Below, one piece after another: positions 781-3,871 of a DNA stretch of 64,000 nt. The stretch spans positions 4,154,001 to 4,218,000 of the forward strand of contig JAFCIZ010000006.1 of NCBI GenBank assembly GCA_017871115.1. Reading direction: 5' to 3'. How positions within the stretch are numbered: position 1 is the first letter of the stretch; the number at the start of each line of letters is the position of its first letter. The stretch comes from Cunninghamella blakesleeana. Taxonomy: Eukaryota; Mucoromycota; Mucoromycetes; Mucorales; Cunninghamellaceae. The notes below the pieces were generated by a model, which saw only the letters and a list, made by a program, of their open reading frames with translations, did not search any database and was not told where the DNA came from. Made by a program: the position numbers and the translations under genes.

Positions 781-796
781 TTCCATTGGGTGGTGG
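781..796 (+). promoter_or_regulatory. Leader segment complementary to the HAC1 intron
   Basis: TTCCATTGGGTGGTGG, 117 bases upstream of the ATG at 913, is the exact reverse complement of CCACCACCCAATGGAA at 1705-1720 inside the predicted Ire1 intron. Sixteen consecutive pairs, nine of them G-C, are striking in such AT-rich DNA. In budding yeast a 5' leader/intron duplex holds unspliced HAC1 mRNA untranslated. I infer the same role here, provided transcription starts upstream of 781, which the sequence alone cannot show. Confidence 0.75.
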
Positions 797-912
797 TTTA
801 TATAGATCTGTTTTATTATTATTCTTATTACTTAATTGAAAAAACAACAGCTTTCTCTCTCTCTCTCTTTTTTTTTTTTTTGACTCTTGTTATAAACTTT
901 ATTAATATTATC

Positions 913-2040
913 ATGGCCAATACTGTTAGTTCTACTACTACTTCAAGTGATAATACTTTAACTGATTTGTTATCATTCCCTATGGATTTTTCTATTGATC
1001 CTTTGATGACTTTTCAAAATACCTCTTCATGTTCTCCTTCTCCTCTTTCACATAATGAAGCCTTGTTTCCTTTAACTTCTGAATTAATGTGCTCTTCTTC
1101 TCCTTCGGATGGTTCAACTGTTTCTTCGGATAGCAGTTCTACTATTGGTTCTCCAAATATGATGACGATGCCTACCATTACTAAGAAAAAAGGAATGAAA
1201 ACTGGAACAACCAAAAAAGCAAGACTTTCATTGGAAGATAAAGATCAAAAAACCAAAGAAAGAATATTAAGAAATCGTGCAGCTGCTCAAGAATCTCGTG
1301 ATCGAAAACGTAAATATGTTGCTGATTTAGAAACTACTAATAAAAGATTAACAACAGAAAATGAATCAATGAATAAACGTATGAAATTATTAGAATTGGA
1401 AAATCAATCTTTACAACAACAATTGGCTCTTTTTGCTCAACAATTGGCCCAAGTTCAAGCTTCTCAGCAACAACAACAACAAAAAGTGAATAATACCTCT
1501 TCATCATCATTATTATCGTCATCTTCCTCTTTATTTACTCATGGCTTTTGCGATTCAGCACGGATCGTAATAAAAGGTTTATCTTGTTTATTATGAAAAA
1601 AATCAATCTATCGTAACTGTGTACCAAAATTGAAGTGAAATATCAAGTATATAGATCAACTCTTTTAAAAAACTGTAATGAAGTTCTCAACCAAAAAATG
1701 AATCCCACCACCCAATGGAATTTTTATTTTGATATTTGTTATTTAAACTACTACTATACTCTACTTCAACAATGGACCCTTTTGATTGATTGATACTTTA
1801 TATTTTTTTATATACATACGATAACCTTTTCTCCCTGCAGCGGAGGTTGTGAAGCAAATGAAGGTTGAAAATGGTGATAATAACGATGATGATGAACAAC
1901 ATGACTATATGCCCTCTCCTATGTTATCTCCTCCTATCTCTTCCTCTTCTGAATGTGAAACGGATGATGAACCTATTTCTCCTCCTCAACATATTGAATT
2001 GGATGATTTATTTGATTGGGATGGTCAACAAACTTTTTAA
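913..2040 (+). CDS. HAC1: HAC1/XBP1-type bZIP transcription factor with Ire1-type intron
   Basis: Likely master regulator of the unfolded protein response. I chose the ATG at 913, the first ATG after the T-rich leader. Unspliced, the frame stops at 1594-1596 (227 aa). Removing 1559-1837 joins exon 1 (913-1558) to exon 2 (1838-2040) in frame and gives 282 aa. The N-terminus (1-100) is Ser/Thr-rich. The basic region at about 112-135 contains KERILRNRAAAQESRDRKRK, which fits the Hac1/HacA/XBP1 class, and a leucine zipper follows to about 180. A poly-Q stretch precedes the splice junction at residue 216. Exon 2 supplies an acidic tail ending ELDDLFDWDGQQTF, a plausible activation domain like the tail gained on splicing of yeast Hac1. 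The unspliced form instead ends RIVIKGLSCLL. The bZIP call is firm; HAC1 identity rests on the RNA signals as well as the domain. Confidence 0.87.
1548..1570 (+). promoter_or_regulatory. 5' Ire1 splice-site stem-loop
   Basis: Stem TTGCGATT (1548-1555) pairs with GATCGTAA (1563-1570): eight pairs, two of them G-U. It closes a seven-base loop, CAGCACG (1556-1562). Ire1 sites are seven-base loops cut after the third base, a G, so the predicted cut is CAG|CACG after 1558. The yeast HAC1 5' loop has the same CAG at this position. Confidence 0.82.
1559..1837 (+). other. Predicted non-spliceosomal (Ire1/tRNA-ligase) intron
   Basis: A 279-base intron starting CACGG and ending CTG, so not GT-AG. Its length is close to the 252 bases of the yeast HAC1 intron and far from the roughly 20-26 bases of XBP1 and filamentous ascomycetes. 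Its length is a multiple of three, but it carries the in-frame stop at 1594-1596, so removal swaps the C-terminus. It contains the leader-complementary segment at 1705-1720. Confidence 0.8.
1705..1720 (+). promoter_or_regulatory. Intron segment complementary to the leader (attenuator)
   Basis: CCACCACCCAATGGAA is the perfect reverse complement of 781-796. It lies about 150 bases into the predicted intron, so it would be lost on splicing, as expected of a block on translation of unspliced mRNA. Confidence 0.75.
1830..1846 (+). promoter_or_regulatory. 3' Ire1 splice-site stem-loop
   Basis: Stem TCTCC (1830-1834) pairs with GGAGG (1842-1846), one pair being U-G, closing the seven-base loop CTGCAGC (1835-1841). 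The loop is identical to the 3' loop of metazoan XBP1. The predicted cut is CTG|CAGC after 1837. An outer AAC/GTT pairing could extend the stem across a bulge. Confidence 0.82.
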
Positions 2041-2397: not shown

Positions 2398-3871
2398 TTA
2401 TATAGAAAAATTAGAAATATCATCTGGGCCTGACAATTTAGGTTGAAAAGGTGGGGTACCTAAAATAATAATAATAATAATAAAAGAAAAAATCGATTTA
2501 ATCAATGATAAATATATATATAATTATGATTATGATTTTGATTGTTCTTACTTTGATATAAACGATCCCAATCGATACCATTAAAGAATGGATGTATCTT
2601 AATTTCTTCATACGTTAATCTATTTTCTTTTTTATCTAATAGCCTTTTTTTTTTTACAAAAAAATATTAATAAAAGAAAAATATTCGTATTATTTAGTTT
2701 TTCTTATTTTATTTTCTTTGTATGCATATTGTTAATAGTATTAAATATTACCTATTGATAAGATCTTTGGCATGATCAGATATAGGAAAATCTGGGTTAA
2801 ATGATATGGAACCCTATTAAAAATAGAAATATGAAAAAACAAATAGAAAAAAAAAATAGTGAATAAAACGTTTCCTTTTTTACATTTCTTTTTTTAATTA
2901 TTTTATATTCTAAAAATAATTACCTTATGGAACAAAATCTTTTTATAAGTATCGAATTCACCTAAATCACTATAAAATGGAGGCACTTCTTGTAACATTT
3001 CATATAAAACAGCACCAGCTGACCACCAATCCACTTCAACACCATACGAGAGTTGATTATTTTGAAGAGATAATAAAATTTCAGGAGAAATATAATCACA
3101 AGTACCTACTGGTAAAGAAGACGGAGAAAAAGAGACTTGGTCAATCGGTATACTCGAACCAAAATCCGTTAATTTAATATGACCAGAAGCATCTAGTAAG
3201 ATATTTTGGGGTTTGATATCACGATGAAGATAACCTAGTTGATGAAGGAAATGAATTGATTCAACGATTTCTGCCATATAAAACTTTGCCTGATCTTCTT
3301 TTAAAATTAAATTAGGCTGTTGCCGATCTAATAAACTAAATAAATCTCCACCAGGCATATATTCCATAACAAGATAAATAGAGTGATCATCTTCAAAAGA
3401 GCAATAAAGTGTTGGTATATATTGTTGTTGTTGAGAATAATGTTGATCATGATAATAAATGGATTTTTCATGTTCAATAAATACCTTATCTTTGGATTGT
3501 TGTAAATAGCTTTTATTTTGTACTTTCATAGCATAGATTTGTTGATTCATTTCATTTTTTACTATATAAACTTGGCCATATTGTCCTTTTATAAGTGGTT
3601 GAATGATTTGAAAGTCGTCTTTGGTAAAGTCCGTTTTCTTTTTTTGTATTGTATTTTCTATTCATAAATAAACATAACGGTAACAATTAATTAATAATAT
3701 GAATTAGTAATACCATTATCACTTTATTTAACATTCTTTTTATTTACTTTTTAAGGATGTATAATAAGTTGATAAACGATTTAAAGGTATTGATTTATGG
3801 AAGGGGTAAGTATTATTTAAGTAAGGTAAGCAAGTATTTGATTCAGTTGACGGATTAGATATAAACAACAT
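2398..3871 (-). CDS. AGC-family Ser/Thr protein kinase, DMPK/citron-like
   Basis: Five exons: 3871-3748, 3657-2924, 2813-2752, 2643-2552 and 2459-2398, all in phase, 357 aa. It is almost entirely kinase domain. Visible motifs: glycine loop GQYGQV, lysine in YAMKV, alpha-C glutamate in IEHEKS, HRDIKPQN, DFG in LTDFGSS, and SPE in DYISPEIL. The C-terminal IHPFFNGIDWDRL and TPPFQPKLSGPDDISNF are the AGC extension, and its wording is closest to the myotonic dystrophy kinase/MRCK/citron group. There is no coiled coil or PH domain after the kinase, so it is a short member. The start at 3871 (MLFISNP) is preferred to an upstream Met at 4057 because the stretch between is Phe-rich and looks untranslated. 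Substrate unknown. Its stop faces the HAC1 stop, 357 bases away. Confidence 0.85.

Follow-up and report, generated by a model that had tools for sequence, protein, structure and literature searches.

We have identified in the HAC1 gene of the fungus Cunninghamella blakesleeana two 16-nt segments that are exact reverse complements of each other, one lying ahead of the start codon and the other within a long intron predicted to be excised by Ire1. This arrangement is best explained by a translational lock in which leader and intron pair in the unspliced mRNA until Ire1 releases them, an explanation to which we give a probability of about two in three. With less assurance, though still leaning in its favor, we hypothesize that this Ire1-released lock operates in the Mucoromycota as a kissing pair between two hairpin loops (777-799 and 1703-1722), so that the switch would not be an invention of the budding yeasts but would either be ancestral to fungi with long-intron HAC1 genes or have evolved more than once. 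Positions refer to the window, the whole 64-kb stretch of DNA that was analyzed, and features are on the plus strand unless stated otherwise.

A putative leader segment at 781-796 (TTCCATTGGGTGGTGG; 16 nt with 9 G/C, at -132 to -117 relative to the ATG) and an intron segment at 1705-1720 were reported as exact reverse complements by a first-pass annotation of this DNA, and a sequence check confirmed it. The complementarity is real and lies beyond chance. Within the 64-kb window, these two sites alone match the 16-mer with up to two mismatches. In the organism's own genome (31.9 Mb in 12 contigs) the exact 16-mer likewise occurs only at these two sites, and up to two mismatches yield 19 sites as against 17 for a reversed control pattern. 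The surroundings are AT-rich, with 20% GC in 640-912 and 28% GC in the intron, and the GC peaks of both regions coincide with the two copies of the 16-mer.

To assess rarity, 700-912 and 1559-1837 were dinucleotide-shuffled 277,786 times and perfect runs of at least 9 nt were scored. The best perfect run between the native regions is the 16-bp match with its 9 G/C. No shuffle among the 277,786 gave a run with 8 or 9 G/C, one gave 7 and 21 gave 6. Length alone is less rare, as runs of at least 16 nt, irrespective of G/C, were found in 80 of 277,786 shuffles. The expectation of the first-pass annotation that chance pairing was unlikely is borne out by G/C content that no shuffle matched and by a 16-mer pair unique in the genome. 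Whole-region duplex energy, in contrast, fails to single out the pair, which counts against the lock: when segment pairs with this geometry were taken from the genome, 599 of 1,786 were equal or better, a number attributed putatively to AT microsatellites, and against shuffles 1 in 500 was equal or better. Because of these two results, rarity was instead measured by how many G/C the perfect run holds. In a survey of perfect inverted pairs with arms of at least 9 nt lying 300-1500 nt apart, covering 182,843 bases (the window plus 39 loci), this pair was also the richest in G/C, with 9 versus 7 for the next best, which lies in a CAC repeat. The inverted-pair and hairpin-loop survey omitted the fetched copy of the HAC1 locus itself and one overlapping locus, and the inverted-pair background is tilted against the finding because most loci had been fetched for their resemblance to the motif. 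A second complementarity, 766-776 with 1649-1659 (11 bp, 2 G/C), was dropped, as runs of at least 11 nt occurred in 31,075 of 277,786 shuffles; its AT-rich segment 766-776 includes the 5' arm of the putative leader hairpin described below.

The gene that carries the pair had been called HAC1 in the first-pass annotation, and this identity holds. The open reading frame 913-1596 matches the bZIP domain (E 6.7e-10), an Ire1-type intron is predicted near its end, and the in-frame spliced product matches two annotated Mucorales proteins. The ATG at 913 and the intron at 1559-1837 are likewise as had been assumed. Exon 1 (913-1558, 646 nt) carries the bZIP domain, the predicted Ire1-excised intron (1559-1837, 279 nt) can be removed with the frame kept, and exon 2 (1838-2040, 203 nt with the stop codon) encodes an acidic C-terminus ending in DDLFDWDGQQTF. 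With the intron removed, the product has 282 aa in frame, as against 227 aa for the unspliced reading, which stops at 1594-1596.

Both ends of this intron are predicted to lie in hairpin loops, which the available portion of PMC8881652 gives as following the consensus CxG/CxGx for Ire1 (a slash marks the cut). The 5' splice-site hairpin (1548-1570) has a 7-nt loop, CAG/CACG, at 1556-1562 with a predicted cut after 1558. It folds at -9.2 kcal/mol (z -3.0), which 2 of 200 shuffles equaled, and is kept in the whole-mRNA fold. Its loop has CxG/C, and position 6 is C versus G in the consensus; this one departure was counted against the lock. The 3' splice-site hairpin (1831-1845, CUCC-CUG/CAGC-GGAG, predicted cut after 1837) has the loop CUG/CAGC, which fits the 7-nt consensus on a 4-bp stem in folds with context. 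Of the two splice hairpins claimed earlier, the 5' one stands, and the 3' one stands in its intron context (folds of 1500-1900, 770-2150 and 755-2150) but not as an isolated 27-mer (1826-1852), which does not form it and whose fold was equaled by 102 of 200 shuffles. A spliceosomal GT-AG intron at 1567-1840 (274 nt) was rejected by eye, as the frame is lost and runs into a stop, and no shift of the 1558/1838 junction was found by eye to give a GT-AG intron. A search of the organism's own genome gave no HAC1 paralogue, the only other match being weak (29% identity, E 9.7e-5), and there was no Rfam match within 600-2200 at E up to 1. The neighboring open frame on the minus strand, 2903-3550, is convergent with HAC1, contains a Pkinase domain (E 1.5e-46) and looks like part of an intron-containing gene.

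Forty-nine homologues were compared. The nearest is 97% identical across 79% of the query, a Cunninghamella echinulata protein shares 85% over 79% of the query, and mostly other Mucorales follow, which makes a Cunninghamella the likely host. The spliced junction CDSA-AEV (read as CDSAAEV) is annotated in two of the 49, from Hesseltinella vesiculosa (P0009) and Mucor lusitanicus (P0012), the unspliced reading CDSARI is found in 38, and nine have neither. The recurrence of CDSARI in 38 of 49 protein sequences suggests that the same departure in the 5' loop extends across the Mucorales. In Mortierella and Endogone, the proteins have QSAV and ESAA at this place, which at the protein level would allow a canonical 5' loop. 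When the spliced protein was aligned with seven annotated relatives, picked for their C-termini, the C-terminal motif L..L.DW.GQQ was invariant. The models from Mucor bainieri (P0014) and Parasitella parasitica (P0015) read through CDSARIAKKE and join exon 2 elsewhere than the M. lusitanicus model does; because of this difference, the Ire1 intron is probably misannotated in both. The unspliced tail (1559-1596) begins with RI in 38 of the 49 homologues and varies afterwards. In yeast HAC1, the corresponding tail is a degradation signal that removes leaky unspliced product, according to the available part of PMC5114014.

The genome also encodes candidates for the enzymes that such an intron would call for. 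A genome profile search gave one IRE1-type RNase domain (PF06479) over the cut-off, in two exons on contig C11, with a kinase domain upstream of it on the same contig. An RNA ligase domain of the tRNA-ligase, Trl1 type (PF09511) was found on contig C7 (E 6.6e-50), so that IRE1 and RNA ligase domains are both present in the same genome as HAC1. The ligase CPD domain (PF08302) was not found in the genome, and control genomes were equally silent. RtcB gave no match in this genome, in a search whose control was positive in 9 of 14 genomes.

Secondary structure predictions place the two segments in hairpin loops. The putative leader hairpin (766-810) has a perfect 9-bp stem (768-776 with 800-808, 2 G/C) and a 23-nt loop (777-799) that encloses the whole of 781-796; it folds at -12.7 kcal/mol (z -3.0), a stability reached by 2 of 200 shuffles. 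With the intron segment held open, a constrained fold predicts an intron hairpin (1695-1730) with a weak 8-bp stem (1695-1702 with 1723-1730) and a 20-nt loop (1703-1722). For 1500-1900 the predicted fold reaches -92.2 kcal/mol, a value that none of 100 shuffles equaled (z -4.9), and a long intron hairpin in this fold draws the two splice sites together. In the survey, 77 of 31,471 16-mers of comparable G/C lay inside hairpin loops of the leader kind, and 15 of 31,471 when the stem was to have at least two G/C. The loop placement of 781-796 was recognized post hoc and is no more than suggestive.

The energetics favor pairing and at the same time constrain its geometry. Holding both segments open costs the 755-2150 fold 9.2 kcal/mol, with the leader hairpin and both splice hairpins remaining; the cost is 6.0 and 4.0 kcal/mol when the segments are opened singly. 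Since the 16-bp duplex gains -30.1 kcal/mol, pairing should be favored by about 20 kcal/mol, before any penalty for a pseudoknot. Once the mRNA is spliced, no partner of 781-796 does better than -13.7 kcal/mol. The helix between 781-796 and 1705-1720 is absent from the minimum-energy fold computed without pseudoknots, which counts against the lock, and forcing the helix as a nested one costs 34 kcal/mol because the intron stem breaks. The model therefore works only with a loop-loop (kissing) contact, and the folds suggest that the two hairpin loops form such a kissing pair.

These placements bear on the reading that the pair is neutral, 16 nt having been copied by accident, through a template switch or a short inverted duplication, without any function. 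That the pair is known from a single genome speaks for an accident of this kind. Against it, the pair is unique in that genome and both copies fall in predicted loops and are split between leader and intron, the layout known from budding yeasts; we regard an accident as very unlikely.

Under the proposed lock, 781-796 would pair with 1705-1720 in the unspliced mRNA over a long range, probably loop to loop. The duplex is predicted, by analogy with yeast, to stop scanning ribosomes and hold back translation. Under stress, Ire1 would cut out the intron and with it the 1705-1720 partner, freeing the leader, and the Trl1-type ligase would join the exons after cleavage. The yeast-style block put forward in the first-pass annotation is partly supported: what stands is the HAC1 identity, the length and Ire1 type of the intron, a complementarity that exceeds chance, and energetics that favor pairing while leaving the predicted splice hairpins intact. 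The evidence for the lock comes from one genome, which counts against it in terms of conservation and covariation support. One homologue (P0044) has 51 residues ahead of its likely true start that resemble a translated leader and end in LLHWVGT before the Met, and the C. blakesleeana sequence ahead of the ATG reads FHWVVV, in frame, across the 16-mer. The fungus of P0044 possibly has a similar leader element, chance also being conceivable.

Pairing could be real and yet serve mainly some step other than the translational block, for example delivery of the mRNA to Ire1 or support of splicing. The long intron hairpin that joins the splice sites in space would suit such a role, and there is a precedent in yeast, where elements in the intron and the 3' UTR assist targeting of the mRNA to Ire1 (available part of PMC6116095). 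A leader duplex of about -30 kcal/mol would nevertheless be expected to hinder scanning regardless, and in yeast an 11-bp hairpin near the cap is enough for this, as given in the portion of PMC8881652 at hand. We consider a role mainly in another step highly improbable.

The lock has as its premise that the transcript begins upstream of 781, which would place 781-796 in the putative leader. The main threat to it is the TATA-like word TTTATATAG (797-805) straight after the segment, which could put the transcription start downstream of the element. It is possible, though we think it unlikely, that 781-796 is promoter DNA made up of an inverted CCAAT (ATTGG) and a G-rich element before a TATA box at 797-805; transcription would then start near 830, the segment would be outside the mRNA and the intron copy would have some other cause. 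The direct adjacency of TTTATATAG to the 16-mer agrees with this, as does its being uncommon as a 9-mer in the 64-kb window (two forward and three reverse sites). A CT-rich tract at 852-884 offers a further candidate start region, CT tracts being marks of transcription starts in fungi. The sequence ATTGGGTGGTGG does not, however, behave as a recurrent motif: it has four exact sites in the genome, two of them here and two within open frames of 495 and 367 aa, and 165 sites with up to one mismatch versus 149 for a control. CCAAT/ATTGG is common anyway, with 160 occurrences in 64 kb. The TATA-like word doubles as the 3' arm of the putative leader hairpin, which it overlaps, and the exact complement in the intron stays unexplained under the promoter reading. 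Promoter and lock may also coexist, a long leader being locked and a short one escaping, by analogy with Aspergillus niger hacA. The absence of an ATG from 631-912, considered as a sign of a long leader, was set aside as uninformative (P 0.16-0.22 in shuffles).

Among the matches listed in a literature search (titles and abstract openings, mostly without subscription literature), no title dealt with HAC1 splicing or attenuation in the Mucorales, and words that begin with Mucor or Rhizopus are absent from the main texts of PMC6222058 and PMC4891664. In the available parts of PMC8881652, PMC6116095 and PMC10608004, the HAC1 genes for which a leader-intron lock has so far been described belong to budding yeasts whose introns are long. 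If the lock in C. blakesleeana is true, the same solution would exist on a distant branch of the fungi, and whether its origin is shared or convergent would be testable by a comparison of Cunninghamella species. The silencing of an mRNA by its own unspliced intron could then also be studied in a second system, one whose geometry is loop-loop.

The fungi in which HAC1-type mRNAs have been studied differ in how the proposed lock compares with them, as far as the available sections of the cited papers describe. Neurospora, Verticillium and Cryptococcus (HXL1) share with C. blakesleeana an Ire1-spliced bZIP mRNA, but their introns have about 20-56 nt and leader-intron pairing was excluded or not seen (PMC4488935, PMC8071499, PMC6116095). 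The same sections of PMC4488935 and PMC8071499 state that leader-intron attenuation is not available to ascomycetes whose introns have about 20 nt, and that of PMC8881652 ties attenuation to the Saccharomyces clade. In A. niger hacA, a structured leader represses a HAC1-type mRNA, as is proposed here (PMC6627864, PMC8071499). There, a switch of start site may give a shorter leader under stress, and the TATA-like word at 797-805 would permit the same in C. blakesleeana. The A. niger element is an 18-bp GC-rich repeat with both arms in the leader of an mRNA whose intron has about 20 nt, whereas the partner proposed here is intronic. A leader repeat of this Aspergillus type (about 18 bp, GC-rich) was not found in C. 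blakesleeana, where the leader has only the 9-bp stem with 2 G/C (768-776/800-808).

The budding yeasts are closer. Leader-intron pairing is present or likely in S. cerevisiae, Kluyveromyces lactis and Hansenula polymorpha, according to the accessible parts of PMC6116095 and PMC10608004. As in C. blakesleeana, the HAC1 genes of K. lactis and H. polymorpha have long introns (297 and 177 nt) and complementarity to the leader that was deduced from sequence (same sources), although these are budding yeasts and the K. lactis leader element lies at -52 to -28. In S. cerevisiae, -38 to -20 of the leader pairs with 764-782 of the intron (PMC8881652, PMC5114014). The leader there has 68 nt, which places the duplex near both the cap and the ATG; at least 11 bp are required, and translation is derepressed when 24 bases are added between cap and duplex (PMC8881652, all as far as its available portion goes). 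C. blakesleeana differs in belonging to the Mucorales and not the Saccharomycotina, in the greater distance of its element from the ATG (-132 to -117 versus -38 to -20), a point against the lock, in the predicted placement of the copy ahead of the ATG within a hairpin loop and in that its pairing, repression and release are predictions. The likeness to S. cerevisiae HAC1 is nonetheless extensive in these partial accounts: both genes encode a bZIP protein and have a long Ire1-type intron near the 3' end of the coding sequence (252 nt there, 279 nt here), both have a leader-intron complementarity of more than 11 bp (an uninterrupted 16 bp here, in the region ahead of the ATG), and in both, removal of the intron would delete the partner of the leader element and replace the C-terminal tail.
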